From: a virus | IMG/VR virus record: IMGVR_UViG_3300042465_002875 | Span: 1 to 29,426 of that record | Reading direction: 5' to 3' (one strand) | DNA length: 29,426 nt | Part shown: piece after piece, positions 9,519-27,029 of the stretch | How positions within the stretch are numbered: position 1 is the stretch's first letter | How the letters are laid out: the number at the start of each line of letters is the position of its first letter | Made by a program: the position numbers and the translations under genes | The notes under the pieces: model-generated | The model's input: the letters and a program-made list of their open reading frames with translations, nothing else | Told to the model about the DNA's origin: nothing | Databases searched by the model: none

Positions 9519-9818
9519 GGTTGCAGGTTGCAGGTCGGTTGCAGGTTTAAAAATACAAGGGTGCAACCTCTCAAACCCTACTCTATCAACACATAGATGA
9601 TATAGTTGCAACCACAAAAAAAAATATGGTAATAAAGTATAGATAACATGCACACACACACACATACACACATACACGCACACATTATGATATATTTATA
9701 TTTGTTCTGGGTACTATCGAAAATGTGTGATTTAACCTGCAACCCTGCAACCGAACCGCTGAATACCTACATAGACGTGGTTATAAGCGGTTGCATACTT
9801 ATTCATCAACCTGCAACC
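9519..9818 (+). repeat. Iteron cluster, candidate replication origin
   Basis: The 312-bp gene-free stretch between the primase-helicase and HNH genes holds GGTTGCAGG at 9519-9527, 9526-9534 and 9537-9545, and its complement CCTGCAACC at 9736-9744, 9744-9752 and 9810-9818. There are partial copies at 9562-9568, 9606-9613 and 9789-9795. The two clusters, AGCGG-flanked on both sides (9516-9550 and 9731-9760), form an imperfect inverted repeat of about 30 bp around a purine-pyrimidine tract and an AT-rich block (9684-9703). Iterons plus an AT-rich melting region next to a replication initiator gene are the hallmarks of an origin. The function is inferred; an alternative is a regulatory repeat region. 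Confidence 0.65.
9646..9685. repeat. CA-rich alternating purine-pyrimidine tract
   Basis: Forty bases alternate purine and pyrimidine without a break, including seven CA units in a row (9651-9664) and further CA groups interrupted by TA and CG steps. Such tracts can adopt Z-DNA under negative supercoiling and are prone to slippage, so their length may vary among relatives. It lies between the two iteron clusters. Confidence 0.85.
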
Positions 9819-10901: not shown

Positions 10902-11312
10902 ATGGCAGGTCATCCAACAGACTATAGACCAGAATACGCTGATCAAGTTTACAGACTTTGTTTACTTGGGTTAACAAATCAAGAATTAGCTGTTTTCTTT
11001 GATGTTTCAGACACTACGATTGAAAATTGGAGGAAAGCACATCCTGAATTCTTTGGTGCGTTCACACGTGGGAAGCTAGAAGCAGATGCAAAAGTTGCTC
11101 AATCATTGCATAAAAGAGCATGCGGATTAATTGTTAGCGAACAAGCATTAACAAGAGATGGGGCGGTTGTTACTTTACAAAAGGAATTGCCTCCAGATAC
11201 TTCAGCAGCTAAACATTGGCTTGCGAATCGTCAACCTAATAAATGGAGAGAACAATCTGAAGTTAAGCATGAGTTTGTGAATCGTCCTCCTTGGCTAGAT
11301 GCAGCTAAATAA
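10902..11312 (+). CDS. terS: Terminase small subunit
   Basis: This 136-residue protein has an N-terminal HTH (NQELAVFFDVSDTTIENWRKAHPEF, about 26-50) that recognises phage DNA, a central helical oligomerisation region (FTRGKLEADAKVAQSLHKRA) and the typical C-terminal signature LPPDTSAAKHWLANRQP with NKWRE, found in many small terminase subunits. It should select the packaging site and hand DNA to TerL. It overlaps terL by 14 bp. The length is typical for the family. Confidence 0.9.
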   Translation: MAGHPTDYRPEYADQVYRLCLLGLTNQELAVFFDVSDTTIENWRKAHPEFFGAFTRGKLEADAKVAQSLHKRACGLIVSEQALTRDGAVVTLQKELPPDTSAAKHWLANRQPNKWREQSEVKHEFVNRPPWLDAAK

Positions 11313-12441
11313 AAACTTTCAGTTCTTAGTTGACAATGTTCCAAAATATCGAATTGTAGGTTTACAAGGTGGAACTAGATCGGGTAAGTCTTACGCAGTC
11401 GTTCAATACCTAATCAGTCTTGCATCGAATTACAAGATCGGAGTGATATCCATTTGCCGTGAAAGTTACAATGCGTTAAAAGCAACTGTGCTTCGTGACT
11501 TTATTGATATACTTATTTCAGCAGGCTTGTTTCGGGATGAGGATTACAACCGAACTGATCACACCTATATTCTGAACGGCAATGTGTTTGAGTTCTTCGG
11601 GATGGATTCGCCAGGTAAGGTGCAAGGAAGGAAGCGAAACATTCTGTTCGTTAACGAGGTGATGGAAACAAATCAGAATGTTTACAGGCAGTTGGCATTA
11701 AGGACTGAAAATCGAATCATAATGGACTTTAACCCGACATCAATTGAGCATTGGGTGTATAACGAACTAAGCAGATCAGACTCAGCAACAGTTGTTACAA
11801 CCTACCTTGATAATTTGGATAATCTAAACGCTGATACAATTGCTGAAATCGAATATCTAAAGGATGCTGATCCTGATTTGTGGAAAGTATTTGGCGAGGG
11901 TATGCCATCATCTGTCAGGAATCAAATTTACAATCATCAAAAGGTTTTGGAATACCAAGCACCTTCTGACTTTTGTTATGGTTTGGACTTTGGTTACAAT
12001 CACCCAACAGCACTTGTCGAGGTAGGTCATCTTGATAGGTCAATTCAATGGCATGAAATCATCTATCAATCACATTTAACACCATCAAACCTTATTGACT
12101 TAATGATCCAAAAGGGAGTAAGGAAAACAATTCAAATCTATGCAGATGGAGCAAGACCTGAAGCAATTGCGGAAATTCAAAAGGCAGGATTCAGAATCAA
12201 GGCAGTTGAGAAATATCCGGGATCTGTTAAGGAGCAAATTATTAAGGTGAAATCAAGACCTCTTGTTATTTCGTCAGAAAGTGTAAATTTGCTACGTGAA
12301 ATCAAAAGCTATAAATGGTCGGAGAATAATCCCGATGAACCAATTAAAGCCTTTGATGATGGGATGGACGCAGGCAGGTATGGAACACATGGTTTAATTA
12401 AAGGAAAAAGAGGTAACCCATTGATATCATTTACAACTTAG
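11299..12441 (+). CDS. terL: Terminase large subunit
   Basis: This 380-residue packaging motor has an N-terminal ATPase with Walker A GGTRSGKS (24-31), Walker B NILFVNE (114-120; Glu120 catalytic, with Asn in place of the usual Asp) and coupling motif DFNPTS. Its C-terminal RNase H-like nuclease carries Asp231 in GLDFGYN, Asp283 in YADGARPE and Asp353/Asp354/Asp357 in FDDGMDAGRYG. It is of the Terminase_3/PBSX type, and the length is at the short end for TerL. It pumps DNA through the portal and cuts concatemers. It overlaps terS by 14 bp and is five bases from the frameshift gene downstream. Confidence 0.95.
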   Translation: MQLNKNFQFLVDNVPKYRIVGLQGGTRSGKSYAVVQYLISLASNYKIGVISICRESYNALKATVLRDFIDILISAGLFRDEDYNRTDHTYILNGNVFEFFGMDSPGKVQGRKRNILFVNEVMETNQNVYRQLALRTENRIIMDFNPTSIEHWVYNELSRSDSATVVTTYLDNLDNLNADTIAEIEYLKDADPDLWKVFGEGMPSSVRNQIYNHQKVLEYQAPSDFCYGLDFGYNHPTALVEVGHLDRSIQWHEIIYQSHLTPSNLIDLMIQKGVRKTIQIYADGARPEAIAEIQKAGFRIKAVEKYPGSVKEQIIKVKSRPLVISSESVNLLREIKSYKWSENNPDEPIKAFDDGMDAGRYGTHGLIKGKRGNPLISFTT

Positions 12442-12446
12442 GTAAC

Positions 12447-13234
12447 ATGCAGAATTATAAATTAGGAGAACACAGCGTACAGATTCCACAGGACTGGGAA
12501 GAAATTACATTAAGACAGGCAATCGCATTATCAAAGTCAGGAGATGATGTTTCTGAAATCATGGCTGCGATTACTGGCATACCTTCTGAAATAACTAAAA
12601 GAATTAAGGCAATTGACGTTGAGGTGGTTTTTGGTTCGGTTCTCAACTTTTTAAAAATCAAACCTGACCTTGATAAGATGTATGCCGTTAAAGCACCTGA
12701 AACATTTACTCTTGGTGATCAGACTTTTTCACGTTATTACAAGCCAGGTGAGATGACTTGGGCGCAACACTTGAACTTTGATGCTGTTGCAGGAAATAAA
12801 GACCTTAGTGATCTTGAAAAGGTTGCTCCTGTGATTGCTATCTGCTGTCAACAACCTGATAAGTACAATGAAGAAACACAAAAGGAACTAGAACAGTTTG
12901 CTCTTGATTTACCATTGAATATCTCAACTGCGATCTGTGGCTTTTTTTTTCGTCAATTGCTGAATTTCAACGAGCAACGGCTTTTAAAAATGAAATTGAG
13001 TACACTTCAGATCAAGTCAAAGCAGGCATTCATAACTTTAAAAGGTTCGGGGCGCTTAATTCCATCGACTCTCTTGCTGGCGGTGATATTAGCAAGTGGA
13101 ATTTGGTTGTTATGTTACCTATGCAAGATGTGGTTATGAAGCTGAAAATGAATCAGGAATCTAACAAGTATCAACTTGCAATGGAAAAGATTGCAAAAGA
13201 ACGAAATGATAGATTAAACAAACGAAGATCATGA
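12447..13234 (+). CDS. Putative tail-assembly-chaperone-like protein, needs -1 frameshift
   Basis: The 5' frame starts MQNYKLGEHSVQIP and runs to a TAA-type end at 13139 (230 residues). However, its part after the T9 tract at 12942-12950 is an odd hydrophobic tail. Reading base 12950 twice (-1) instead gives 94 coherent, polar residues beginning SSIAEFQRATAFKNEIEY and ending AKERNDRLNKRRS, for a total of 262. The stop at 13232-13234 overlaps the next ATG by ATGA, as most genes here do. Thus the true product probably crosses the frame. The N-terminal part (about 10-165) resembles proteins of Bacteroidota phages with a TFxQxxxxD core that may be tail assembly chaperones, which in lambda (G/GT) are also made by -1 shift. 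A missing T in the assembly would mimic this. Confidence 0.65.
12944..12977 (+). other. Candidate -1 frameshift signal
   Basis: In the reading frame the T9 tract offers the heptamer T_TTT_TTT (12944-12950), an X_XXY_YYZ slippery site. Six bases downstream TTGCT (12957-12961) can pair with AGCAA (12973-12977) around an 11-base loop, a weak but properly spaced stimulator. Polymerase slippage on nine T is an equally good mechanism. Confidence 0.5.
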
Positions 13235-13464
13235 AAAGACTAAAACAATTCTTTCAATTTACTTGGGCATTCATGCAGAATAAGCCTGTTAAGTTTGTTC
13301 CTGAAAAATCAAAGGTGGATTTTGAAAAGGAGCGAATCGAATTACTAAGAAAAGAGGCAATCAGGATCAAAGAAAAGAAATCACAATTCACATCTCGTGA
13401 ACGTGCTAAGATTATGGACATTTATAATTTATTGGTAAAAGAGGGCAAAGCAGAAGCAGTATGA
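13231..13464 (+). CDS. Small basic helical protein, unknown
   Basis: This 77-residue, strongly basic protein has an aromatic N-terminus (MKRLKQFFQFTWAFM) and a long charged helix (EKERIELLRKEAIRIKEKKSQF). It starts in ATGA overlap with the end of the frameshifted gene and ends in ATGA overlap with the next one. The position, among neck/tail genes, suggests a small morphogenesis or chaperone-associated protein. No family recognised. Confidence 0.55.
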   Translation: MKRLKQFFQFTWAFMQNKPVKFVPEKSKVDFEKERIELLRKEAIRIKEKKSQFTSRERAKIMDIYNLLVKEGKAEAV

Positions 13465-13646
13465 TTATAACTGATGAATTGAACCACAAGATTCTGAATT
13501 TGGAAATGGGAGCAAGACTTTATGTTCATGCTTCAATTTCTGTGTTGAGAATTAAAGGAGGTTGGATTTATGAGTATTGGACTAAGAATGGAAGTGATAC
13601 CTTTGTAACGGCAACTTGTTATGTTCCAAACACTATCAAACTATGA
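13461..13646 (+). CDS. Unknown 61-residue protein in the structural operon
   Basis: This short beta-rich protein (LYVHASISVLRIKGGWIYEYWT and FVTATCYVPNTIKL) has aromatic residues suggesting a small beta-sandwich or virion-associated domain. It overlaps both neighbours by ATGA. Lack of any known motif leaves the function open; a minor neck or tail component is the simplest guess from position. Confidence 0.5.
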   Translation: MIITDELNHKILNLEMGARLYVHASISVLRIKGGWIYEYWTKNGSDTFVTATCYVPNTIKL

Positions 13647-14101
13647 GGATCGTTAATGTAATTCGGGATTGCTTTGATACGATGACTGTTTTAAAGTCAT
13701 TTATTAACGAACCAAGAGGTGCAGCAAATCAGTTAACTGATAACACCGAACTGCCATTCTTAATCTTAAACAGACCAATTGAAATGCCTTATGAATATTT
13801 GGCGAATAATGTTCAAGAGGTGTATGATGTTCTTTTGATTTACGGACATAAAAATGCAAATACTGATCTTGGTCAATCTCAGGACTCAAACGATGTAGAA
13901 ATTGAGATAATGAGGCAACAGGCAAAGATTATGATATTGAACCTTGATCGTCATGTTGATGTTCGTGAGGTTCGTGTTACTCAACCTGTCAAAGATTACA
14001 TTGATGGATTCGATGTTAACGCAGCAGGAGTATTTCAATATCTGAGAATCACATTGCTTCCTCCATCTCCTGATGTCTGTGCAACACTTCCAGTTCCATG
14101 A
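13643..14101 (+). CDS. Putative tail terminator or neck protein
   Basis: The start at 13643 (MRIVNVIRDCFD) overlaps the previous stop by ATGA and gives 152 residues; an ATG at 13616 lies deeper in the neighbour. The protein is alpha/beta with a C-terminal pattern FDVNAAGVFQYLRITLLPPSPDVC, resembling the closing strands of tail-terminator or tail-completion proteins of siphophages. It sits directly before an HK97 gp10-like gene, the usual order for such connectors. The family assignment is by layout, not by a diagnostic motif. Confidence 0.5.
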   Translation: MRIVNVIRDCFDTMTVLKSFINEPRGAANQLTDNTELPFLILNRPIEMPYEYLANNVQEVYDVLLIYGHKNANTDLGQSQDSNDVEIEIMRQQAKIMILNLDRHVDVREVRVTQPVKDYIDGFDVNAAGVFQYLRITLLPPSPDVCATLPVP

Positions 14102-14592
14102 TAGCCTTCGATCCCGAAATACTTAAATCATTTGCTGATAAGACTGTTTTCGACATTAGACAGTCAATGGATGTTTCGGGAGTGACTGCATCTGGTAAAT
14201 TTAACCGATCCTTAGAATCAACAGTAAGTTCAAATGAAGTTGTAATTACTGGATTGAAATACGCAGGTGCAATTGAATCAGGACGTAAACCATCGTCAGG
14301 TGGTACAGGAATACTTCGGGCATTGATTCGTTCTTGGATAGATGATAAGGGGATAGTTCCAACAGGAGGCATAAGCAAAGATTCATTGGCTTTTTTAATT
14401 ACTCGCAAGATTCATCAGGATGGGACAAGGCTTTATCGTGGAACTGATTATTATGGCAGATCCAAACCATCACGAGTAATTGAAGGAGTTGTTAAGGATG
14501 GAAGGATTGAACAACTAGGATCAGACCTTATTTTATCATTTGTTAAACAAGTTAAATCAGAAATCTTCAATGGCAATAATTCAAACAGTTGA
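14098..14592 (+). CDS. HK97 gp10-like head-tail connector/tail completion protein
   Basis: This 164-residue protein has the typical central motif of gp10-like proteins, LKYAGAIESGRKPSSGGTG (about 53-71), in which an aromatic-Ala pair is followed by a glycine/arginine loop. A conserved-looking second half follows, with IRSWIDDKGI and LITRKIHQDGTRLYRG. It is small and soluble, with an acidic/helical N-terminus. Proteins of this type join the head completion ring to the tail tube. It overlaps the previous gene by ATGA and the next by 23 bp. Confidence 0.65.
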   Translation: MIAFDPEILKSFADKTVFDIRQSMDVSGVTASGKFNRSLESTVSSNEVVITGLKYAGAIESGRKPSSGGTGILRALIRSWIDDKGIVPTGGISKDSLAFLITRKIHQDGTRLYRGTDYYGRSKPSRVIEGVVKDGRIEQLGSDLILSFVKQVKSEIFNGNNSNS

Positions 14593-15994
14593 TCTTTTAC
14601 AACTCGTAACTGATGAGGTAAGTCCTGCAATCGAATCGTCATGGGTTGCAGTTAACAATCCTGTTTACGTTGAATACCTGAGAAAGGATTTCACATTCAC
14701 AAACGCATCATATTCTGGTGGTTCATTTTTGAGAATGATCTTTGCATCAGCACCAATTGGAGTTGCTGTTGGTCATTCTGTTTATATTGGATTTGAAGGA
14801 GTATATGAAGGTGCAGCAATTGTTACTGATGTTAGCGGAACAGACGTAACAGTTGATGTTGAAGTTGATTTGACAGGAGTTATTGGCATTGATGCCTACA
14901 TGAATGATAATACTTTGCGCGAGAATTATTTTATCGATTTGAATATTTCTGAACCAACAAATACAACTGTACTTGCAACATTAAAAGCATCCCCAAATAC
15001 AGCAGGAGTTATTGGAATTGATATTTCTTCAGCACTTCAAACCTTTGTCAGCAATATTGATGCACTTGTTTTGGAAGTTGCTGATACTTCCGTTCAAGAT
15101 AGCAACTCAACTATTGCATTTGTTTATTCAGTTAAGGAGAATTGGAATGGTTCAAGTAATTCATTTGTTTTATTGAGTGATACACATTATGGTGTTAATG
15201 GAGCATTTCAATTACAAGCTGAGTACAATGGAAATTATGCAGAATATTATTTGGATATTTACAATGAAAACAAAAAGATTCCACGTGATTTCGTAAGACC
15301 AAAATATTTCGTAAGCTATCCTTTTGATATTTCATTCATCTTTCCTACTGATCTTGATCTTGTTCCAATGACATCGGAGGCAGAACATTTTGCAGGTGAT
15401 GTTTCGATAGGTACTGACACTTCAACTGTTACTGCTACAAACAAAGGTTCATTGTGCAGGATTTATCCAAACATTGATGTTAACATTTCGCTAGGTGATA
15501 CTGTAACCTATGTTGCCCACAAACTTATGTCTAACGATGCACAAGTAAGCGAGGATTTATTTATTGACATTGTTTATCCTGATCAATCGGGCTGCAATGG
15601 AATTTACATCGAATGGCTTGGTAAGTTAGGCAATCGTTCTTATTACCTATTCAATGATAAATCAGAAGAATCATTGTTGGTTAATGGAGGTGATACATTT
15701 GAATATGCATTCAATCGAATTTCTGATCTTGAACAAAGGTCTGATTTCTTTAGTAAAGATGCCACACAGCTATTCAAATGTGGAGTAAGCGCAATTTCAC
15801 GAAACGACATTGAAGGTCTTAAATCACTTCTTACATCGGTTAAGGTATCGGTAATAACTGCTGATGGTTTGGGATGGAAAAGAACAGGAATACTTATTGC
15901 TCCCGGTACATTTGTGATTGGTAAATTGGCAGACAATACTTTCAATCTTGAATTTGCATTCAGTTATTCCAGACAATTTAACCAATCAGCATGA
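14570..15994 (+). CDS. Large beta-rich tail protein, unassigned
   Basis: The start at ATG 14570 (MAIIQTVDLLQLVTDE) is chosen; an ATG at 14540 would add ten basic residues from within the neighbour's coding frame. The 474-residue product is acidic, Thr/Ser/Val-rich and beta-strand dominated, with no catalytic motif, signal peptide or membrane helix. Examples are VTDVSGTDVTVDVEVDLTGV and the C-terminal LADNTFNLEFAFSYSRQF. Position before another large structural gene and the tape measure suggests a tail tube, tail-tip or baseplate component. No specific family is recognised. It overlaps the next gene by ATGA. Confidence 0.6.
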   Translation: MAIIQTVDLLQLVTDEVSPAIESSWVAVNNPVYVEYLRKDFTFTNASYSGGSFLRMIFASAPIGVAVGHSVYIGFEGVYEGAAIVTDVSGTDVTVDVEVDLTGVIGIDAYMNDNTLRENYFIDLNISEPTNTTVLATLKASPNTAGVIGIDISSALQTFVSNIDALVLEVADTSVQDSNSTIAFVYSVKENWNGSSNSFVLLSDTHYGVNGAFQLQAEYNGNYAEYYLDIYNENKKIPRDFVRPKYFVSYPFDISFIFPTDLDLVPMTSEAEHFAGDVSIGTDTSTVTATNKGSLCRIYPNIDVNISLGDTVTYVAHKLMSNDAQVSEDLFIDIVYPDQSGCNGIYIEWLGKLGNRSYYLFNDKSEESLLVNGGDTFEYAFNRISDLEQRSDFFSKDATQLFKCGVSAISRNDIEGLKSLLTSVKVSVITADGLGWKRTGILIAPGTFVIGKLADNTFNLEFAFSYSRQFNQSA

Positions 15995-17922
15995 TAAAAG
16001 TAATTGTAAATGATTATGAGATTGAATTGTTTTCAGATACTGTTGTGGCTTTATCAAAGAAATGTGCTACAATTGGAAATCTTCAAAACAGATATAGTTC
16101 ATTTACTAATAAGTTTAATGTTCCTAAAACAAGATTAAATAGGTCTGCTCTTGGCATAACTCAGTTCCAAGATAATTCAGGAGCACCTTATTCACCATTA
16201 AATGGAAAGATTATTTCTGATGGAATCGAAATTGCTTCGAATGTAACAGTCATTATTGAATCAGTATCAGATAGTATTTCGCTTTCAATTCGTGCAGGTA
16301 ATGGAAGTTTATTTGATAGATTTAATACCACTTACCTAAGTGATGTTGATACTTCTGATTTGGATAGATATTGGAACAGAGCAAGCATTTTAAATGCAGT
16401 TACGAATGATTGGACTGATGGAATAATATTCCCAATTTGTCAAACAGGAAATCAAAGTTTAATTTTTAATACGATTCAGATTAAAGGCATGATACCTTTT
16501 GTATTCTGCAAAAATCTATTTGAGCGCATAGCTTTAATGTTCGGGTACACTTGGACAGGATCAACTTACACAAACGATCAGTTTGAAAAGTTAATGATTG
16601 CAATATCAAGTTTGAATATTTCACAAAGATTTGCGGATCAATTTAAGACTACTGCTAGTGCAGATCCTGCAACATACGTTTCAATCGGTGGTGGTAATGA
16701 TACGGAGCAGTATGTTGGATTAACTTCTATTTATGATCCGTGGTCTTTGCTTAATACAACGAATCTTCCACCAAATGTTGATAGTTATAAGATTCCTGTT
16801 CCTGGAACTTATCTACTTCAGTTTGATTATGATATTACTGTTGAGCATTTAAATTCAGTTGGGGCAGCATTTCTTGATTTTACAGCAGCAGCAACAGGAA
16901 CTATTGCTGCAATAACAACTGTTGATTTAACTCCAACACTTCCTGATGTACCTCAGAATTTCACAGGAACATTAAGCATTGAATTTACATTTGATACTAT
17001 TCTTGATAATAATTCAATTTTAACAGCGAATGCTTTTTCTTATTTGTCTTATTTATCAGGTGCTGATGCAGGTTCAACATTTACATTAAACTCAGGTCAA
17101 TTCAGAGTTCAAGAAATTGCAGCACCTGAAACACATTTTAACAGACCACTATCAATTGCCGACCATTTACCTGAATGGACTATTGGGAAATTCGTAAAAG
17201 AGGTTGGAAATATATTCGGAGCAATATACGATGTTGATGAATACACTAAAGAAATTGAGATTACAAGACTTGATGAAATTTCAACAAATAAAAATGAAGC
17301 ATTAGATTGGAGTGATAAACTTGACCTATCAAAAGAAATACTGGTTACATTTATTGCATCAGGTATTGGTCAAACAACTACACTTCAATGGAGTGAGTTC
17401 TTACTGTACTCATACAATCTAAATGTTGCAAATGATCAGTTGCCCGATAATACAACTTACATAAAATCAGAGGCGGATTATTCCATTTCAGCAATATTAG
17501 GACAGCAAACAATTCCTGTTATGAGTTTTGATGTTTGGGATTTTGACAATAGTAGAATTGTAATGGATGACGCAGCACGATTTGGAATTCTTGGCAGTAA
17601 TCCCGGTACATCAATTATTGGAAACGCATTCGTAGGAACAACAAGCCCATTTCCATTTGCTTACTTTGATTACTCAGGATCAGAACATTCATTGGATTGG
17701 GGTGTATTGTTTTCAAGATATTTTGATTCATTGTTAATTCCAATGACTGATAAGATTCAACGAGTTACTTGCTACGTTAGATTGAACGATGTGGACATTC
17801 AGAAGTTTAAATTCAAATATCCAATATTCATTCAGCATTTTAATCGTTATTTTTACGTGGACGAAATAAGTGAATATACAGGCAAGAATCAATCTACTAA
17901 AATCGTGTTAATGGGTATCTGA
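15991..17922 (+). CDS. Large tail/baseplate-type protein, unassigned
   Basis: This 643-residue protein has an N-terminus of a type seen in Bacteroidota phage structural proteins: a short beta domain (MIKVIVNDYEIELF) and the conserved-looking SSFTNKFNVPKTRLNRSALG (about 40-59). The rest is beta-rich with aromatic and Asn-rich segments (TYLLQFDYDITVEHL), ending in a strand pair NRYFYVDEISEYTG. It has no catalytic motif. It is directly before the tape measure (TGATG overlap), so it is probably part of the tail tip or distal tail complex rather than the head. Confidence 0.6.
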   Translation: MIKVIVNDYEIELFSDTVVALSKKCATIGNLQNRYSSFTNKFNVPKTRLNRSALGITQFQDNSGAPYSPLNGKIISDGIEIASNVTVIIESVSDSISLSIRAGNGSLFDRFNTTYLSDVDTSDLDRYWNRASILNAVTNDWTDGIIFPICQTGNQSLIFNTIQIKGMIPFVFCKNLFERIALMFGYTWTGSTYTNDQFEKLMIAISSLNISQRFADQFKTTASADPATYVSIGGGNDTEQYVGLTSIYDPWSLLNTTNLPPNVDSYKIPVPGTYLLQFDYDITVEHLNSVGAAFLDFTAAATGTIAAITTVDLTPTLPDVPQNFTGTLSIEFTFDTILDNNSILTANAFSYLSYLSGADAGSTFTLNSGQFRVQEIAAPETHFNRPLSIADHLPEWTIGKFVKEVGNIFGAIYDVDEYTKEIEITRLDEISTNKNEALDWSDKLDLSKEILVTFIASGIGQTTTLQWSEFLLYSYNLNVANDQLPDNTTYIKSEADYSISAILGQQTIPVMSFDVWDFDNSRIVMDDAARFGILGSNPGTSIIGNAFVGTTSPFPFAYFDYSGSEHSLDWGVLFSRYFDSLLIPMTDKIQRVTCYVRLNDVDIQKFKFKYPIFIQHFNRYFYVDEISEYTGKNQSTKIVLMGI

Positions 17923-20699
17923 TGGCAAACGAAACTACTGAAATTCTAAGGCTTGTACTGGATGCAGATCAAGCAATCAAGAAAACTGCTGACCTTAAAA
18001 AGCAGCGAGATTCACTTGCTGATACTAACAAGGTTCTGACTATAACTGAAGGAAAGAATTCAGAGGCTGTATTGAAAAATGATGCAGCAATTAAGATTCT
18101 GAATCAAGAAATTGCCAAACAGACAAAGGAAACAAATAATCTTGTTAAGGCTCAACTTGCTGCTGAAGGTTCGAATGATCAATTAAAGGCTCAACTGTCA
18201 ATCCTTACTGCTCAATACAATGCACTAAGCAAGGCAGAACGTGAAACATCTGTTGTTGGTCAGGCATACGCAGATCAGATAAATGTTATTACCGAAGAAC
18301 TAAAAGGAACAGAAGGGGCAATCGGTAATTTCAGAAGGAATGTAGGTGATTACGAAGGGGCAATTAAAAGAGCAGGCACATCATTAACAGATCTCAAAAC
18401 TAGACTTGCAGAAGTTCAGAAAGTTGCTCAGACAACTGATATTAATACGCAAGAATTTAAAGATGCTAGGGATGAGGCAGCAAACTTAGGGCTTCAGATC
18501 GGGCAGTTAGAAGGCAAGTTAGATGAGTTCGGAAATCGTGAACCAAAGAATCCTGCAAAGAAAGCATTTGAAGACACTGTCAATACTGCTGTAACATTAG
18601 GTTCAACACTTGAACTTGTAAATCTTGCATTTGGTGAGAATGAAGATGTTCAAGCAGCAACAGCTAAATCATTAAAAGCAATTGCGATTGCTCAAACTTT
18701 GGCGAATATCGCAAAAGAAGCAGGAGCAGTTATTGATACAATTGCACTAGCTAAATCAGCAGCACTTACAGCAGGCAATTTTATATTAGCAGGCTCAACA
18801 ACTGTATTAACGGGAATCACAACTGCATTTGGTGTGGCATCTGGAATAGCTTGGGCAATCGCAACACTAGGAGTTGCTGCATTGATAGCAGGTATTGTTT
18901 TGCTTGTTGCAAACTTTGACAAGGTGTTGAATGCAGTAACTGATTTTCTTGGTTTGACATCGGAACAAGAACGGGCAACAAATAAACTGAATGAATCCTA
19001 TGCTGCTCAACTTGTTACTTTGAATGATTTAATTGAGAAAGAGAAAGCTAGAGGTGAAGTGGTTAAGACTGTCTTTGATAGGCAGATTAAATTACAACAG
19101 TCATTAGGTAGAGATACAATTGCACTTGAAAAAGAAAAAGAAAAAGCATATCAACAAACATTAATTGCTCAAAATGCTGCTGCCCAAAAGTCTGCTGATA
19201 TTATTAAAAAATCAAATAATGGAACTGCTAAACAGTATGGTGAATTATTAAAAACAATTCAAGAAAATAACAAGGCAATTCAAGAATCAAAAGACAATAT
19301 TACTATTGCAGAAAATGAGGCGAATCAGAAAAGAATTGAGGAGCAAAAAAAGACAGATGAAAAATTGTCTGCTGCACAAAAATCAGCAAATGATAAATTG
19401 AAAGAAGCACAAAAGAAATATCAGGAAGATATCAAAAGTCTTAACGAAGAATTTCTTTTAAATGATAGACAACGACTTGAAAAATCATTTACAGATAAAC
19501 TTGCTGTAGTTAAAGGTAATGGTGAAGAAGAAGTAAAACTACGTGCAGCAATTGAAAAGGCAAAAAAAGAAGCATTAGACGTATTTGATGCTGAATCTGC
19601 TGCTTCTCAATTAGCAAGAGAACAGAAGAAAAAAGATGATATACTAGCAGTTCAATCAGGTTTAATCAATGATCAAATTGCTTTGAATGATACTTTACAG
19701 CAAAACGAATTGTCAGCCGTTGATAATTCAGTTGATTCGGAAAGAGATAAGGTAAGCAAAAAGGCTGAAATAAATTTAAAGTTTCTTCAAACTCAGTTAG
19801 ACCTTGCACAAAAGTTAGCTGATGTTGATGGTATAGTAACCGAACAAGAACTGGCAAACATTGAAAAAGTAAAGCAAGCAATAATTGGAGCGCAAAATGC
19901 AATTACACAGGCTCAACTTGAAAACCCACCAAAAACACTTGGTGAACTTTTTGGAACAAGTCCAGAAGAAAGTGCAAAAATTGATGCTGCAATTGAATTT
20001 ACTAAAGAATCTCTTGCCAATGTAAGTTCACTAGTTAACGAAAGATTTCAAAGGGAAATTGATGGAATAAATCAAGTTGCGGATGCTGAAATTGAAGCAG
20101 TTGATCGCAGTGCTTTGAGCGAAGAAGAAAAAGAAAAAAAGAAAATTGAGATAAATAAAAAAGCAGCAAAGCAGGCATACGCAATTCAACTAAAACAGTT
20201 CAATGCAGACAAGGCTTTGAATTTAATAACTGCTGTAATAAATGGAGCGCAAGCAGTTTTGAAATCAATCGCACTACTCGGACCAGTTGCAGGAGTTATA
20301 GCAGCAGGAATAAGCCTTGCCTCAATAAGTTTAATTGCACAACAACAACCACCACCACCACCATCATTTGCAGGCGGAGTAGTTGGCATGATGGGAGAAG
20401 GAAATGGAACAAGTGATTCAATACCTGCTTACTTATCAAGAGGCGAATCCGTAATTACCGAACGAGGTACAAACCTATCAGAACAAATTAATCCCGGTTA
20501 TCTTGCGTGGTTGAATAAACCAAATAAATTCGCAACAGGACTTGATCCAATTCAAAGTAGTTTTATCCCACCTCAATCGGTTGATGTAGGTCAGCAGATA
20601 CGTGAGGCAATTGCAGGACTCACCATTGTAACTAAAGTAACTGACATTGATAAGGCTCAAATTGATAGAAGGCAAGTAAGAGATGTATCTGTGATATAA
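17922..20699 (+). CDS. Tail tape measure protein
   Basis: This 925-residue protein sets tail length and may help DNA entry. It is largely coiled coil, with long Lys/Glu/Gln/Ala-rich helices (about 10-230 and 345-760; for example EKEKEKAYQQTLIAQNAAAQ). There are two hydrophobic helical regions, about 268-335 (GVASGIAWAIATLGVAALIAGIVLL) and 760-808 (LLGPVAGVIAAGISLASISL). A run of five prolines (about 809-814) leads into the Gly-rich FAGGVVGMMGEGNGTSDSIP segment and SRGESVITERGTN, a common C-terminal pattern of tape measure proteins. It is the largest gene in the window and overlaps its neighbours by one base on each side. Confidence 0.92.
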   Translation: MANETTEILRLVLDADQAIKKTADLKKQRDSLADTNKVLTITEGKNSEAVLKNDAAIKILNQEIAKQTKETNNLVKAQLAAEGSNDQLKAQLSILTAQYNALSKAERETSVVGQAYADQINVITEELKGTEGAIGNFRRNVGDYEGAIKRAGTSLTDLKTRLAEVQKVAQTTDINTQEFKDARDEAANLGLQIGQLEGKLDEFGNREPKNPAKKAFEDTVNTAVTLGSTLELVNLAFGENEDVQAATAKSLKAIAIAQTLANIAKEAGAVIDTIALAKSAALTAGNFILAGSTTVLTGITTAFGVASGIAWAIATLGVAALIAGIVLLVANFDKVLNAVTDFLGLTSEQERATNKLNESYAAQLVTLNDLIEKEKARGEVVKTVFDRQIKLQQSLGRDTIALEKEKEKAYQQTLIAQNAAAQKSADIIKKSNNGTAKQYGELLKTIQENNKAIQESKDNITIAENEANQKRIEEQKKTDEKLSAAQKSANDKLKEAQKKYQEDIKSLNEEFLLNDRQRLEKSFTDKLAVVKGNGEEEVKLRAAIEKAKKEALDVFDAESAASQLAREQKKKDDILAVQSGLINDQIALNDTLQQNELSAVDNSVDSERDKVSKKAEINLKFLQTQLDLAQKLADVDGIVTEQELANIEKVKQAIIGAQNAITQAQLENPPKTLGELFGTSPEESAKIDAAIEFTKESLANVSSLVNERFQREIDGINQVADAEIEAVDRSALSEEEKEKKKIEINKKAAKQAYAIQLKQFNADKALNLITAVINGAQAVLKSIALLGPVAGVIAAGISLASISLIAQQQPPPPPSFAGGVVGMMGEGNGTSDSIPAYLSRGESVITERGTNLSEQINPGYLAWLNKPNKFATGLDPIQSSFIPPQSVDVGQQIREAIAGLTIVTKVTDIDKAQIDRRQVRDVSVI

Positions 20700-20929
20700 T
20701 GGGCAGACTTGAACAAATTACCGAACTAACTAAATCAGGTCAATTAACTGACTTATTTAGAAATGGATTAATTGGATATAAAACATTACTTTACAGAGAT
20801 ATTTATTTTTCCGTTGAGGTAAACATTGCACTTGGATTTTCGCAAGTTCAATCTGTTTCCAATGTTGCTGATGAATTTGGAGTTTCAGAACGTACAATCT
20901 GGAGAGCAATTAAATTTATGAAAGAATGA
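20699..20929 (+). CDS. Small HTH protein at the head of the glycan cassette
   Basis: This 76-residue protein has a C-terminal helix-turn-helix, SVSNVADEFGVSERTIWRAIKFMK (about 52-75), of the sigma-4/Mor-like or AsiA-independent simple type. The N-terminal half (LTKSGQLTDLFRNGLIGYKTLLYRD) is helical and aromatic. It overlaps the tape measure by one base (TAATG) and the glycosyltransferase by ATGA, so it is expressed with the tail genes. It could regulate the cassette or act on late transcription; a DNA-binding role is inferred from the HTH alone. Confidence 0.65.
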   Translation: MGRLEQITELTKSGQLTDLFRNGLIGYKTLLYRDIYFSVEVNIALGFSQVQSVSNVADEFGVSERTIWRAIKFMKE

Positions 20930-22296
20930 CAATCGGAGTTATAACACCTCATCAAGATTCGAAGCGCAAAATGTTCTTGGATAGATTAACCTTTTATATT
21001 CAACGTCAAACACTCAGACCTGACCATTGGATTATAGTTGATCACAAAGAAGACGTGTTGGCAAAAGACCTAACAAAGCGAATCAGAATAGGATGCGAAG
21101 AGGCAATTGAACTTGGATGTGATGTGGTGTTGATTATGGAGGATGATGATTGGTATTCTCCTAACTACATTAAATCAATGATTGAGTTTTGGGAGATACA
21201 AGGCAAGCCCGAAATATTTGGATGCGATAAGACTACTTATTACCATATTAAGCAAGGGCAATTTGTTGAGTTAGATCACCCCAATAGGGCAAGTTTAATG
21301 CACACTCTAATTTCAGCAGAAGGAATTAAAAAGATTGTTTTTCCTGAAGATTCATTTGTGTTTCTTGACATCGAATTATGGAAGCAATTAAAGGGTAAAA
21401 CATTCAGAACATTACCAACGATCGCAGTTGGAATTAAACACGGGATCGGATCAACAGGTGGCAAAGGACACTTGGAAACATTCAAAGGTTATCAACCTGA
21501 TCCTGAATACAAAAAACTCAGACAACTGATTGGTGATGATTCTGATTTTTACATTAACATTTTCCATCCTGAAGTTAAGAAAAGAAAAACAATTGCGATT
21601 GTTACGGGAGTTTGGAAACGTCCAGAGGTGTTTGAAATGTTTGCAAAGGGTATTGATCATTTAATTAAGAACTCAGATTTTAATTATTATGTGATTGTTG
21701 CAGGATCGGAAGGTGAACGATCACGAAAGATGGTTGAATCAAAAGGTTATATTTATTTGGAAGTGCCGAACACACCACTTGCAGCTAAGATGAATGCAAC
21801 AACTATCAAGGCAGGACAATTAGGTTGCGATTACGTTCTTTGTCTTGGTTCTGATGATGTGATTTCACCTGAGTTGATGAATGTTTATTCAAAAGAAATT
21901 GAAAAGGGAACTGACTTTATCGGATTAACTGATTTTTATTTTTACGATACGACAACTAACAGGGCTGCATATTGGGGAGGTTATATTGATGCTAGAAGAT
22001 TAATGCATACAGCAGGAGCAGGTAGATTGATTTCAGCTAGATTAATGGTAAAATGGAACTGGCAGCCGTGGGAAAACAAACACAGTCATATCTTGGATAA
22101 TTCAGTTCAAGAAAAGTTAAAGTTAACACCTCATTCATCTGCTTCGATTTCATTGAAAAAGAATAATGTTTTTGCACTAGACATTAAATCTTCTGAAAAT
22201 ATGACACCATTCCAACTTTGGGAAAACACTCATTACATAGATTTAAACGTAATAAAAAAAGCAATGCCTTATGTGTGGGATAGCAGGGATATTTAG
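20926..22296 (+). CDS. Tandem GT-A glycosyltransferase
   Basis: This 456-residue protein appears to hold two GT-A (GT2-like) domains. The first (about 1-215) begins MTIGVITPHQDSKRK and has the acidic metal-binding motif MEDDDWY (about 71-77). The second (about 222-456) begins TIAIVTGVWKRPEVFEMF and has LGSDDVIS (307-314). Each motif sits at the end of a hydrophobic strand, as in DxD-bearing glycosyltransferases. They should transfer sugars from nucleotide-sugar donors, perhaps one after the other. The gene heads a coupled set with amidotransferase, acyltransferase and another transferase, so it probably builds or decorates a surface or virion glycan. It overlaps the next gene by 26 bp. Confidence 0.75.
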   Translation: MTIGVITPHQDSKRKMFLDRLTFYIQRQTLRPDHWIIVDHKEDVLAKDLTKRIRIGCEEAIELGCDVVLIMEDDDWYSPNYIKSMIEFWEIQGKPEIFGCDKTTYYHIKQGQFVELDHPNRASLMHTLISAEGIKKIVFPEDSFVFLDIELWKQLKGKTFRTLPTIAVGIKHGIGSTGGKGHLETFKGYQPDPEYKKLRQLIGDDSDFYINIFHPEVKKRKTIAIVTGVWKRPEVFEMFAKGIDHLIKNSDFNYYVIVAGSEGERSRKMVESKGYIYLEVPNTPLAAKMNATTIKAGQLGCDYVLCLGSDDVISPELMNVYSKEIEKGTDFIGLTDFYFYDTTTNRAAYWGGYIDARRLMHTAGAGRLISARLMVKWNWQPWENKHSHILDNSVQEKLKLTPHSSASISLKKNNVFALDIKSSENMTPFQLWENTHYIDLNVIKKAMPYVWDSRDI

Positions 22297-23725
22297 CAAA
22301 TCACTTAAACCTGAATTATATCATAAGGACATAGCAACTCTTATGATGGACAAACAAGTTCACAGGGGGCAAGATCATTTTAGCGTTAAGATTCATGGTG
22401 CTGTAACTGTTGCATTTAATAGACTTGCTTTAACCGATATTGATAAACAGCAGCCATCCGATAACAGTTGGATTGTTTATTTGAATGGTGAAATTTATAA
22501 TTACAAAACATTTGGATATACAGGATCTGAGGTTGAGGTTATCGCAAAAGGATTACGGGATTACGGATTGAATTTCATCAATGAACTCAATGGTATGTTC
22601 GTGATTGTCGCAATAAAAGGTGATCAAGTATACATCATACGTGATCGTTTCGGAATTAAACCTATCTACTATTGGGAGAGGCATGAAACAATTGTTTTCG
22701 CTTCAGAATGCAAAGCAATAGTTGGTCATCCTGAATACATCACATCATTAAATAATAATGTAGCAAGGCAATGGTTAGTATTTAACAATGTGTTGACAAA
22801 TGAAACTTTATTTTCAGGAATTAAAAAACTTGAAAAGGGTACGATTTGGCATTTAAATAGTGGGAATAAAAAGAAATATTGGAGTTGGAATTTCGAACCT
22901 ACTCAAATGGATTTTAATGAGGCAAAAAATACAGTCCTAAATTTATTGAATGAATCAATGGTCGAAAAATACAGATCAGATGAAGCAGGTATATTTGTTT
23001 CGGGTGGTGTTGATTCAAACATTATTAGAAATCTATTTAGTGAATTACCAACTTATACTGCTTGCTTTGATTCGGGTGATGAAAGCGAATTGGCTCGTTT
23101 GTTGGCAAATGATAAACACACGGAAATTTACTTTGATGGAATTTATAAACTAGATAAGACCATTTATCATCTTGAGGATTTACGAGTTGGAGCAAGTTTT
23201 TCAAATTATGGGCTTTACGAATATGCTTCCAAAACAGGATGCAAAGTAATTTATGATGGAACGGGATCAGATGAATTATTCGGTGGTTATCCATGGAGGT
23301 ATTCAATTTCGGATTATTATTCAGTAGTTAATCGAACTGGTGTTGAGGATGAATATTGCAGAGGGCTTTTCAATGAGTTATTTCCTGAAGATACTTTGGA
23401 AAATCGGTTTAAATTTGATGCCGAATATTTCTTGGAAGGTGTTTTGCTCGTTGGTGATAAACTTGGAATGGCTCACACAATTGAAGGTAGATATCCATTT
23501 CTTGATAATGATCTTGTTGATTTTTGTTTGAAATTACCTAATGAGTTTAAGAATAATAAATTACTTTTGAAAGAGGCATTTCGTTCTATCATTCCAAATG
23601 AGATTCTTGATGGAAAGAAAAAAGGTTTTAGTTCTCCAGATTATTTTGAAGGTGAAGGAAACCAAGCAAGAAAATGGAGCAATGCAGCATTAACTAAATG
23701 GAAAGAAATTTATGAACCATCCTGA
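22271..23725 (+). CDS. AsnB-like glutamine amidotransferase (asparagine synthetase family)
   Basis: This 484-residue protein has both AsnB domains. The N-terminal class II glutaminase has nucleophile Cys2 (MCGIAGIF), HRGQD (31-35), NRLAL and NGEIYNY (about 72-78). The C-terminal ATP-PPase has the P-loop SGGVDS (244-249), GTGSDELFGG (about 331-340) and EGRYPFLDNDLVDF. It is shorter than E. coli AsnB (554). AsnB relatives in surface-polysaccharide clusters (such as the WbpS type) amidate uronic-acid sugars with glutamine nitrogen; within this glycan cassette that role is more likely than asparagine supply, though substrate is not shown. HRGQD replaces the usual HRGPD. It overlaps the previous gene by 26 bp and the next by 14. 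Confidence 0.88.
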   Translation: MCGIAGIFSKSLKPELYHKDIATLMMDKQVHRGQDHFSVKIHGAVTVAFNRLALTDIDKQQPSDNSWIVYLNGEIYNYKTFGYTGSEVEVIAKGLRDYGLNFINELNGMFVIVAIKGDQVYIIRDRFGIKPIYYWERHETIVFASECKAIVGHPEYITSLNNNVARQWLVFNNVLTNETLFSGIKKLEKGTIWHLNSGNKKKYWSWNFEPTQMDFNEAKNTVLNLLNESMVEKYRSDEAGIFVSGGVDSNIIRNLFSELPTYTACFDSGDESELARLLANDKHTEIYFDGIYKLDKTIYHLEDLRVGASFSNYGLYEYASKTGCKVIYDGTGSDELFGGYPWRYSISDYYSVVNRTGVEDEYCRGLFNELFPEDTLENRFKFDAEYFLEGVLLVGDKLGMAHTIEGRYPFLDNDLVDFCLKLPNEFKNNKLLLKEAFRSIIPNEILDGKKKGFSSPDYFEGEGNQARKWSNAALTKWKEIYEPS

Positions 23726-24233
23726 TCATTCAATCTACGAGCAAAGTTTTGATTTTGACGAATCAAATAAGATTCACCCAACTGCAATTATTTATCCAAA
23801 TGTAACGATTGGACAAAATAATATCATCGGTGCATATTGCGTGATTGGCTCAAATGGTGAAATAAGAGGCATGCAAGAATTTGAAGGTCGTGTTGAGATT
23901 GGAAGTGGAAATACTATTTCAGAACTTGTTACGATTCAAAGACCTGCTGCTGCTGATAAGAAAACAATTATCGGTAATGATAACATTATAATGGCTCACA
24001 CTCATATCGGGCATGATGCTGTGATAGGTAACAACTGCGAACTATCAACAGGAACAATTGTCGGAGGTTATTGCCATATTAATGATGGTGCAAAAATCAA
24101 ACTAGGTGTAACGATTCGAAACAGAAAGATTATTGGTCGGGAGGCTGTTGTTGGAATGGGAGCAGTAGTAACTAAGGATGTTGAACCAGGTTTAACTGTT
24201 GTGGGAAATCCTGCTAAAATATTAATCAAATGA
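23712..24233 (+). CDS. LpxA-like left-handed beta-helix acyltransferase
   Basis: This 173-residue protein consists of hexapeptide repeats ((I/V)G-x4) giving a left-handed parallel beta helix: TAIIYPNVTIG, VEIGSGNTIS, TIIGNDNII, AVIGNNCEL, KIIGREAVVGMGAVVTKDV, VVGNPAK. The segment ELVTIQRP...NIIMAHTHIGHD aligns by eye with E. coli LpxA, placing His101-Asp102 at the catalytic His125-Asp126 and His98 at His122. LpxA has an extra C-terminal helical domain (about 262 residues in total) that is lacking here, so the enzyme is a shortened form. It should acylate a nucleotide-linked sugar, for example on an amino sugar. It is coupled (ATGA) to the next glycosyltransferase-like gene. Confidence 0.85.
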   Translation: MNHPDHSIYEQSFDFDESNKIHPTAIIYPNVTIGQNNIIGAYCVIGSNGEIRGMQEFEGRVEIGSGNTISELVTIQRPAAADKKTIIGNDNIIMAHTHIGHDAVIGNNCELSTGTIVGGYCHINDGAKIKLGVTIRNRKIIGREAVVGMGAVVTKDVEPGLTVVGNPAKILIK

Positions 24234-24991
24234 AACTATGTTTCGCTTACACAGTCTTTAACGGATTTGAATTATTGCAAGGCAGCATTAACCAAATTAA
24301 AGATCATGTTGATGAAATAGTAATTTGCTTTCAAGACATTTCGAATCGTGGAAACTTTAATGCAGACATTGAAAATCAAATTGATCAACTTGAAGGTGTT
24401 TCAATTATCAAGTTTGTTCCTGATTTAAAAGCGGACACGAAAACAAACGAATTAAATAAACATAATTTAATGATTGATGCTGCAAGACATTTGCATTGTA
24501 CGCATATTATTGTCAGCGCAACAGATCACTATTATAAATCAGATGAGTTTATTCAAGCAATTGGATTGGGGCAGAATTACGATTGCACCTTTACATCCAT
24601 GTACACTTATTACAAGAATCCAACTTGGCAATTATTACCTATTGAAGATTACAAGATGCCGTTTATAATGAAGATTTATCCTGAGAGTAAATTTGTGAAA
24701 TCAGTTCGATATCCTGTTCTTGTTGATCCTTCTGTAAAAATTAATACTGTTGGAAGATTTCATGTGTTTTCAGAATCTCAAATAATGATGCATCATTATT
24801 CGATGGTCAGAAATAACATTGAAGAAAAGTTTGTGAATGCAGCAAGTCCGACAATGGCTCAAATAAAGTCAGCAGGCTATATTGATGAGTTTGAGAATTA
24901 CAATGCCGAATCAGATAATGGAATTAAATATTTTCAAGGGCGGAAGATTAAAGAAGTGCCGAACTATTTTGGGATAGATGTTCGTTTATAG
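24230..24991 (+). CDS. GT-A-like glycosyltransferase-type protein
   Basis: This 253-residue protein has an N-terminal Rossmann-like start (MKLCFAYTVFNGFELLQGSI, then HVDEIVICFQD) of GT2-type transferases. A metal-site candidate SATDHYY at about residues 99-105 follows HIIV, and a late His-rich motif IMMHHYSMVRNNIEEKF resembles the C-terminal His motif of some GT-A enzymes. The nucleotide-sugar and acceptor are unknown. It starts in ATGA overlap with the acyltransferase and ends convergently inside the minus-strand gene (44-bp overlap). Its role as glycosyltransferase is likely but not certain from motifs alone. Confidence 0.65.
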   Translation: MKLCFAYTVFNGFELLQGSINQIKDHVDEIVICFQDISNRGNFNADIENQIDQLEGVSIIKFVPDLKADTKTNELNKHNLMIDAARHLHCTHIIVSATDHYYKSDEFIQAIGLGQNYDCTFTSMYTYYKNPTWQLLPIEDYKMPFIMKIYPESKFVKSVRYPVLVDPSVKINTVGRFHVFSESQIMMHHYSMVRNNIEEKFVNAASPTMAQIKSAGYIDEFENYNAESDNGIKYFQGRKIKEVPNYFGIDVRL

Positions 24992-25346
24992 ATACTGTTG
25001 TGTAAAGTGAACCATTTTCATCAACCTTGCTTTTAAAAATTACTGCATCATGTCGGAATAATGCGTCTTGGTCAAACATGTACATATCAAGCTGATATGC
25101 TTTTAAATAAAATTTTTGTATTTCAACTCTTAACTTTCCGAACATCCTTTCAATGGCTTTGAAATGTGCTTTATGTTCGGCTGGGTTGCTTATCGGAATC
25201 AATCCCCAGTAACATTTGCCTATTGAAGTCTCATAAGAATTAATATATCTTACATTTTTAATTCTAAAAATCATTTGTTTAAGATCTTCATAATTAGTTA
25301 TGTTCTTATTTTTGCCGTTCGGCTTTATGTAAAATCCAATGTGCAT
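24948..25346 (-). CDS. Unknown 132-residue protein on the minus strand
   Basis: This is a soluble protein with an aromatic and basic N-terminal half (MHIGFYIKPNGKNKNITNYED) and a helical middle (FKAIERMFGKLRVEIQKFYLKAYQLDMYMF). It has no membrane helix or known motif. It follows the minus-strand gene at 25357-25881 by 10 bp and probably shares its transcript. Its last 44 bases overlap the plus-strand glycosyltransferase-like gene tail to tail. It is probably part of the glycan cargo by association; function unknown. Confidence 0.6.
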   Translation of the reverse strand: MHIGFYIKPNGKNKNITNYEDLKQMIFRIKNVRYINSYETSIGKCYWGLIPISNPAEHKAHFKAIERMFGKLRVEIQKFYLKAYQLDMYMFDQDALFRHDAVIFKSKVDENGSLYTTVSINEHLSQNSSALL

Positions 25347-25356
25347 AGTCTAATTT

Positions 25357-25881
25357 TTAATATTCAAATATAGGAATAATCCCAAGCAAAGCACAATCAG
25401 GATTAAACTTCAGTAGCTTTAATTCACAACCATTCTTTTTCAATTCAAGGTGCAAGGCTCTGAAATCTTTTCTGATTCTTTCAATCATAAAGTCTTTACC
25501 TAAGTTTGGATGACCAGTTATGTCAACTCCTGCCAAATGTATTTCTGTTGCTCCCATGTAGAATGCATGAACTACGGCAATAAATGGAGAGCAGATTGAA
25601 TGACAATAAAAATCTCTTCTGCTTAGTTGATTAACACTTGATCTTTGAGTTGTAAATCGAATTAATTGTGCAGGTCGCAATTGCCTCCATGAATCAAGTT
25701 GAGTAAATAGTTTTGCCTTGTGATTAATTATGGTTTGCTTTCTGACACTTAAAAATACAGAAGGATTATCGCAGACAATTAAATGGTCAACGGGGAATGG
25801 GCAATCGTTTACTCCAACAGTTAAATCATAACTATCAGAGTAAAACTTTGAATCACTTAATCCTGTTACTAAGGCTGTCAT
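25357..25881 (-). CDS. Rossmann-type protein, DUF115/GT42-like
   Basis: This 174-residue protein has the pattern of DUF115/MptE-like and GT42 sialyltransferase-like enzymes: an early strand-loop DLTVGVNDCPFPVDHLIVCDNPSVFL (about 19-44), then HAFYMGATEIHLAGVDITGHP (about 110-130), where hydrophobic strand, GVD and following loop resemble the nucleotide-sugar site region. The short length means perhaps only the core fold is present. It would fit the neighbouring glycan genes, though transcribed in the opposite direction. I am moderately sure of the fold and unsure of the reaction. Confidence 0.5.
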   Translation of the reverse strand: MTALVTGLSDSKFYSDSYDLTVGVNDCPFPVDHLIVCDNPSVFLSVRKQTIINHKAKLFTQLDSWRQLRPAQLIRFTTQRSSVNQLSRRDFYCHSICSPFIAVVHAFYMGATEIHLAGVDITGHPNLGKDFMIERIRKDFRALHLELKKNGCELKLLKFNPDCALLGIIPIFEY

Positions 25882-25892
25882 TTTGCTGTCAG

Positions 25893-25900
25893 CAAATGTA
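25893..25900 (-). promoter_or_regulatory. -7 box for the minus-strand pair
   Basis: On the minus strand TACATTTG (25900-25893) is a perfect TAnnTTTG, 11 bases before the ATG at 25881. No TTTG is found 19-21 bases upstream. If used, the transcript has a leader of only a few bases. A short leader again resembles the near-leaderless arrangement seen for the XRE gene. Confidence 0.4.
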
Positions 25901-25927
25901 GTAAATCAATAATGAACTTTGTCCCCG

Positions 25928-26998
25928 ATGGCAGAGATACACGTTAATATCTTCGGGGAAATTGGATGGGAGAATAATCTTCAATCCGTATCTGCTCAAA
26001 CCAAGTCAGCAACTAAGGATGATTACATTGTACTTCATATTCATTCACCAGGCGGTGAAGTAAATGAAGGCTTTGCAATTTATGATCATTTGGTAGGTCT
26101 TGGGATTGATGGTGAAACTCGCATAGAAGGACATTGTGCATCTATTGCAACTGTTCCTGCGATGGCTTACAAGAAAAGAACCATCACCGAAAATTCAAAT
26201 TTCTTTGTTCATAATCCGTGGACAATGGCAGAAGGTGATGCTAGTGCATTAATAGATACAGCAGAGCAATTAAAGGCAATTGAAAATAGGATTGCAACAT
26301 TTTACTCACGGGTAACAGGAAAATCAGTTGATGATATGCTTGCGCTAATGGCAATTGCAAATGAAATTAAGCCAACACAAGCGAAAGAACTTGGATTTGT
26401 TACCGACATTATCAAGCCTGTAATGGCAATGGCTTCACTTAAATCAAACAATCAAATAAACCAAATAACAACTGAAACAATTATGGACTTTTTAGCAAAA
26501 ATGAAATCCGACATGAACAACCTATTCAAAGGTGTTAAAAATCAACTACCTGAAAATGCAGTTCTAAATTCAATTACTGCAACTCTTACCGATGGAAATG
26601 AAATTGAAATCATTACTGACTCTGATATGCCTGCTGTTGGTGATGCAGTTGTAATGGTTGCATCTGGTGAGGCTGCTCCAAACGGCGATCACACACTTGA
26701 AGGAGGTACAATAGTTACTACATCGGAAGGAATCATTACTGCAATCGTTGAAGCAGTTGTTGAAGCAGAAGATTTACAAGTTGAAAATTCAGCTTTGAAA
26801 TCTGAACTAGAATCTGTTAAAGCAGAACTTTTAGAAACTCAAAATTTGTTTACTGAATTCAAAAACAAACTTGAAGGAAAGCAAATGGTTTACAATCGTA
26901 CACAGCGCACATCATTTTCCGACAAAAACGTAAAAACTGCAAATCGTCTTTCAGGATTAAATCTGCTTGACAAAACTAAATACCAAATTAAAAAGTAA
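25928..26998 (+). CDS. ClpP-type prohead protease fused to a scaffold-like tail
   Basis: The start is ATG 25928 (MAEIHVNIFGEIG); a TTG at 25919 would add three residues. Of 356 residues, about 1-165 are a ClpP/S49-like protease: HSPGGEV (39-45), nucleophile Ser72 in GHCASIA, His95 in FFVHNPW. The second part holds a beta-rich module (ITATLTDGNEIEIITDSDMP and GTIVTTSEGIITAI) often seen in Bacteroidota phage head proteins, then a coiled coil (ENSALKSELESVKAELLETQ). A fusion of protease and scaffold is a known solution for making the prohead; self-cleavage would free the scaffold. It lies directly before the major capsid gene. Confidence 0.88.
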   Translation: MAEIHVNIFGEIGWENNLQSVSAQTKSATKDDYIVLHIHSPGGEVNEGFAIYDHLVGLGIDGETRIEGHCASIATVPAMAYKKRTITENSNFFVHNPWTMAEGDASALIDTAEQLKAIENRIATFYSRVTGKSVDDMLALMAIANEIKPTQAKELGFVTDIIKPVMAMASLKSNNQINQITTETIMDFLAKMKSDMNNLFKGVKNQLPENAVLNSITATLTDGNEIEIITDSDMPAVGDAVVMVASGEAAPNGDHTLEGGTIVTTSEGIITAIVEAVVEAEDLQVENSALKSELESVKAELLETQNLFTEFKNKLEGKQMVYNRTQRTSFSDKNVKTANRLSGLNLLDKTKYQIKK

Positions 26999-27029
26999 TC
27001 AAACCCCAAAACCAAATAACAGACAAACA

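Follow-up and report, generated by a model that had tools for sequence, protein, structure and literature searches.

A conserved T run joins two reading frames of the gene after terL in tailed phages and very probably yields short and long versions of the same protein

The window analyzed here (the whole 29,426-nt stretch of viral DNA) carries, directly after the terminase large subunit gene (terL), a gene whose reading frame appears to change at a run of nine T (T9) at 12942 to 12950. Read from the ATG at 12447, the codons of the 0 frame around the tract are GGC TTT TTT TTT CGT, and the open reading frame (ORF) continues to a stop at 13137 to 13139, giving a product of 230 amino acids (aa). 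The -1 frame contains a stop at 12905 to 12907 and is open from there as far as the TGA at 13232 to 13234; a slip at the tract would thus give a fused product of 262 aa. A T_TTT_TTT heptamer (pattern X_XXY_YYZ) lies in phase within T9. The first-pass annotation of this DNA had given the same coordinates for the tract and for the ends of both frames, the same heptamer phase, and an ATGA overlap between the -1 stop and the next ORF at 13231, all of which agree with the sequence and with the 0-frame reading of the tract. T9 is the only run of at least 8 T in the window. The sole other A or T homopolymer of this length is an A9 at 9616 to 9624, past a primase/helicase gene (end at 9517) and ahead of an ORF at 9648. 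The features of the locus, with those of two ORFs downstream, are as follows.

11299 to 12441, + strand: terL, directly upstream of the gene (phrog_2 match, E 7.5e-37)
12447 to 13139, + strand: 0-frame ORF, 230 aa; homologs found; predicted structure with pLDDT 88
Residues 1 to 168 of the 0-frame ORF, + strand: conserved N-terminal domain; the remaining residues form a tail that would be read only without slippage
12942 to 12950, + strand: T9 run, the putative frame-change site; T9 or T10 in 168/170 homologous loci
12944 to 13234, + strand: -1 extension, about 94 codons past the site; homologs detected by hidden Markov models (HMMs), -1-synonymous substitutions in close relatives
12951 to 13139, + strand: overlap of the 0-frame tail and the -1 extension; no visible constraint on the 0-frame tail
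12957 to 12977, + strand: weak 5-bp stem (TTGCT/AGCAA); downstream structure not enriched in 59 relatives
13231 to 13464, + strand: next ORF, whose start overlaps the -1 stop (ATGA)
17922 to 20699, + strand: likely tape measure protein, 925 aa, judged by eye from a coiled coil, a hydrophobic stretch, and a TSDSIPAYLSRGESVI motif

The only family matched by the 925-aa protein was phrog_37298, whose function is unknown. The gene order from 10902 to 28079 is unusual, with terS and terL followed by the presumed tail genes, a head maturation protease gene (25919 to 26998), and a likely capsid gene. A glycosyltransferase-like gene (PF00535) and, after it, an asparagine synthase-like gene (TIGR01536, E 1.2e-82) occupy 20926 to 23725, between the presumed tail genes and the protease gene.

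In close relatives, the constraint on the sequence moves from one frame to the other at the tract. The gene is present at 97 to 99% and 93% protein identity in three contigs from other metagenomes, all with T9. Upstream of the tract, 31/41 substitutions in relative L004 fall on third positions of the 0 frame. Downstream, changes fall on third positions of the -1 frame in all cases in L002 (2/2) and L003 (3/3) and in most cases in L004 (9/11); every one of these -1 third-position changes is synonymous in the -1 frame and nonsynonymous in the 0 frame, and two L004 changes introduce earlier stops in the 0 frame. The substitution pattern of L002 to L004 thus switches frame at the tract and shows purifying selection on the -1 frame. 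Such a pattern cannot arise from a base missing in a single assembly.

Profile searches of genome contigs with alignments of the fused protein and of terL returned no relatives, and a tblastn search of named phages with the window protein returned nothing. More distant relatives were reached with terL as the anchor, by reading the gene after it in ever more distant contigs, and then by iterated profile searches with separate HMMs for the two domains. The HMM seeds came only from loci with T8 to T11, so a very different homolog without T9 could be missed. Both domains were present in 170 loci, in the gene directly after terL, down to <30% protein identity; these represent about 130 distinct site sequences and 113 nonredundant -1 peptides, as one contig may give several loci. 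Sorted by frame and longest T run, 153 loci are in the -1 arrangement with T9 and 15 in the -1 arrangement with T10, while one is in the -1 arrangement with the site deleted and one is a single frame. The first-pass annotation had suggested comparing the tract in related phages; the comparison found T9 or T10 kept in 168/170 loci, the same fraction in which the gene layout predicts two products sharing an N-terminal domain, with selection on the -1 frame.

Among the tract-bearing loci, the run is 9 or 10 T and never fewer across all three codon phases, and nine remains the minimum at 59 clusters (<70% identity), 39 clusters (<50%), and 23 clusters (<40%). Relatives with terL at 65 to 68% identity have GG-T9-A or T10 with the same -1 extension, and those at 38 to 40% have T9 in another codon phase. 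Three loci that matched only by the 0-frame part (L193, L208, and L213) also have T9 plus a -1 ORF. The cultured Nonlabens phages P12024L and P12024S, reached only through intermediate relatives, have CTT TTT TTT TAT with a -1 ORF; their annotation gives two genes, gp40 and gp41, the latter from an inner ATG. By comparison, about 1.8 Mb of related loci contain 18 other T runs of at least nine on the gene strand, and a T run at essentially every copy of the gene is far beyond chance. Conserved residues begin at the tract (FF[L/F]...), followed in most relatives by a WGWY...LA.GD... block. Counting against the explanation given below, similarity over the first 16 aa past the tract differs little between the two frames across distant relatives.

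Two loci depart from this arrangement. L261 (2718 to 3410) encodes a single uninterrupted 231-aa version after terL, with the T run absent. We regard it, on its sequence, as a natural fused form; it shows both parts combined in a one-frame protein, and a gene that needs no shift lacking the T run. The first-pass annotation had named an uninterrupted frame without a slippery sequence in relatives as evidence against a frame change. L261 is the one instance, a lone distant exception. In L225 (4196 to 4803), the T run and about 45 codons are lost through a deletion that may be genuine or an assembly artifact, and the -1 relation is retained.

Some look-alikes were set aside. Phages of Bacteroides, Phocaeicola, and Parabacteroides (L106, L107, and L108; terL at 33 to 36% identity) have another gene next to terL, encoding about 200 aa in a single frame and without a T run; by eye, its C terminus (LL..VQ.TAELF...F..A...NYSDA..AI.KR..EIEKEK) resembles the -1 domain. 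Flavobacterium phage 6H gp10 (L267, 10047 to 10939, minus strand), a weak structural match, stops close to T_TTT_TTC, with an unannotated -1 ORF of 105 codons behind it. It was left uncounted because a shift at T_TTT_TTC would meet an intervening TAG in the -1 frame, and it may represent another recoding arrangement.

These observations bear on three explanations that involve no programmed frame change. Homopolymers are error prone and the observation began with one metagenomic contig, and the first-pass annotation held that a T missing from the assembly, with the gene truly one 262-aa frame, would explain the data equally well. This parity was not borne out: the same T9 occurs in independent assemblies, including the three close relatives from other metagenomes, about 130 distinct sites, and the two cultured RefSeq genomes. 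The 21 multimember clusters show zero disagreement in run length, and the T10 relatives are likewise in the -1 arrangement. We consider an assembly or sequencing error extremely improbable. Equally improbable is that the -1 ORF is a separate gene translated alone from an internal start, as the separate GenBank entries for gp40 and gp41 of the Nonlabens phages would have it, given that 22/59 -1 ORFs lack any ATG and only 2/59 have one at ≤25 codons from the tract. In addition, residue conservation starts at the tract, and L261 has both parts in one frame. Poly-T runs this long are mutable, and replication slippage could in principle toggle the long form between individual phages as a phase-variable switch; however, no in-frame T-run allele was found among the 168 loci and run length does not vary within clusters of close relatives, making such a switch very unlikely. 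Conservation strongly supports the earlier proposal of a programmed frame change giving 230-aa and 262-aa products. As judged from these comparisons, the gene at 12447 to 13234 is one gene in two frames, and the phage very probably relies on slippage at the T run to produce the same protein in a short and a long form.

In the proposed mechanism, most transcripts and ribosomes would stay in the 0 frame and yield the 230-aa protein, while a fraction of products would switch to the -1 frame at T9 and yield the 262-aa protein, with the conserved -1 domain as its C terminus. We think it fairly probable that the switch is made by RNA polymerase slippage (U9 to U10). The host RNA polymerase would slip back one base on T9 and add a tenth U to some transcripts, and the extra U would shift translation into the -1 frame. 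Slippage of the polymerase on A/T runs is mainly single-base insertion and rises with run length (PMC5574713), and one inserted U gives the -1 frame. A/T runs are avoided from length nine in many bacterial genomes, owing to polymerase slippage (PMC1088944). As expected of a slippage gene, an uninterrupted T run of at least nine was found in 59/59 clusters and in three phases. The alternative, on the model of lambda G/GT, is that ribosomes undergo a programmed -1 frameshift at T_TTT_TTT while the mRNA keeps U9. Tail assembly chaperones shift by this means as a rule (PMC5009743), and the in-phase heptamer is present in every relative; any U9 holds a valid U_UUU_UUU, and the ribosome alone could suffice. 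In the commonest phase, much of T9 is accounted for by the FF codons and by amino acid constraint in the [V/L/I]FF[L/F] context. In phase 3, the full T9 yields two overlapping heptamers, and its last T doubles as the second position of a 0-frame Leu codon, a role that may constrain this base.

The length of the run nevertheless argues against the ribosome. Depending on the lineage, the first T of the run occupies codon position 1, 2, or 3 and the heptamer minimum differs, yet the run is never <9 in any phase, although U_UUU_UUC would serve the ribosome. E. coli ribosomes find U_UU.C as slippery as U_UU.U or more, and H_HH.U_UU.Y is among the efficient heptamers (PMC4066793); thus, ribosomal frameshifting offers no obvious ground for excluding C. 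In 28 clusters, T-to-C at the seventh heptamer base would be doubly synonymous and give U_UUU_UUC, and in 17 clusters T-to-C at the last T would be synonymous in the -1 frame and leave U_UUU_UUU whole. Neither change was ever seen, so that run-shortening T-to-C changes are absent in 45/45 clusters. Under a conservative model with pooled codon use, the joint P is 9e-6 (59 clusters), 2.6e-4 (39 clusters), and 0.009 (23 clusters), and with lineage-specific pyrimidine use it is 1e-8, 1e-6, and 2e-4, respectively; these values treat lineages as independent and are optimistic, as the clusters share ancestry. An earlier codon test on Leu codon use alone gave a smaller P and was superseded by these more conservative tests. 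The base above nine, by comparison, varies as codon use predicts (T10:T9C = 8:3).

Elements that stimulate ribosomal frameshifting, which are common at such sites but not strictly required, were not enriched around the tract. The first-pass annotation had pointed to the 5-bp stem six bases past T9; the stem is present, but as evidence for a stimulator it does not stand, as folding downstream of the window tract is weak (Z -1.0), and we regard the stem as probably not functional. Across 59 relatives, downstream structure has a mean Z of -0.45, versus -0.29 and -0.16 in control stretches. Upstream Shine-Dalgarno-like sequences show no clear excess (12/59 versus 13% in control stretches), and the 59 clusters have no slippery heptamer other than the T run. 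A run longer than the heptamer needs, together with the lack of enriched stimulators, thus favors polymerase slippage, and we judge ribosomal frameshifting possible but less likely.

The N-terminal domain (168 aa) has a predicted fold that is small beta plus mostly helical (pLDDT 88) and has matches to dozens of unnamed proteins from Caudovirales, among them I6R9M9 of P12024S, which corresponds to gp40 of P12024L. A PDB search with a first, weaker model gave no match below E 2, and matches in a viral structure library were mostly unannotated, with one named chaperone at a low TM score. Searches of Pfam, PHROGs, and NCBIfam returned no significant named family, Phage_TAC included. For Phage_TAC_7 (PF10109; Mu/P2-type tail assembly chaperones) there was a weak, nonsignificant hint (2/33 members, best E 0.17). 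Ribosomal shifting in P2 gene E takes place on T_TTT_TTG.

Ribosomal frameshifting in phages has its classic example in the tail assembly chaperones. In the lambda gpG/gpGT pair and in the window gene alike, a single gene close to the start of the presumed tail genes encodes a short and a -1-extended product, with a helical N-terminal domain and a site near the end of the first domain (PMC5009743). They differ in the site itself, which is G_GGA_AAG in lambda and T9 or T10 here, in the absence of a detectable sequence match or a clear fold match, and in that the polymerase rather than the ribosome is the likely agent. The window gene lies directly after terL, on the same strand as the likely tape measure gene and separated from it by several genes. 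The parallel with G/GT drawn by the first-pass annotation therefore fits in architecture and position, while membership in a named chaperone family was not found. Given the two predicted products, a place directly downstream of terL and before the likely tape measure gene, and the documented frameshifting of such genes (PMC5009743), the protein is likely a helper in tail building, and we think it fairly probable that it works like the G/GT pair. If so, the short and long forms would most likely act like gpG and gpGT, with the N-terminal domain coating the tape measure protein and the C-terminal domain bringing in tail tube subunits, and the slippage rate would set the short-to-long ratio.

The mechanism that we favor, polymerase slippage, has precedents in Shigella mxiE and spa13, Thermus dnaX (A9), and insertion sequence (IS) elements with 9A or 9T, where about nine A or T join two frames, RNA structure is not needed, and an extended product can result (PMC5009743, PMC1088944). 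Those cases are bacterial genes and IS elements, whereas the window gene belongs to a phage and its run is conserved over deep divergence. We found no report in the open-license literature of a frameshift in the gene after terL. The kind of gene, a recoded phage tail gene, is known; new here are the site (nine or more T in all phases), the probable mechanism, and the family.

PHROGs 32199 and 38404, to which Nonlabens gp40 and gp41 belong, are the two halves of this one gene family; databases now keep them as two unrelated families of unknown function, and the frame change is noted in neither. In related phages, an ORF after terL that ends near T9 or T10 should be joined to the -1 ORF. We advance, tentatively and as somewhat short of probable, that polymerase slippage on T9, rather than the ribosome, sets the short-to-long ratio of a tail assembly protein throughout a large group of tailed phages, most of them uncultured. 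The mechanism can be tested directly in the cultured Nonlabens phages. If it is correct, the polymerase can set at transcription the same product ratio that is otherwise set by the ribosome, and this ratio would depend on the host enzyme.
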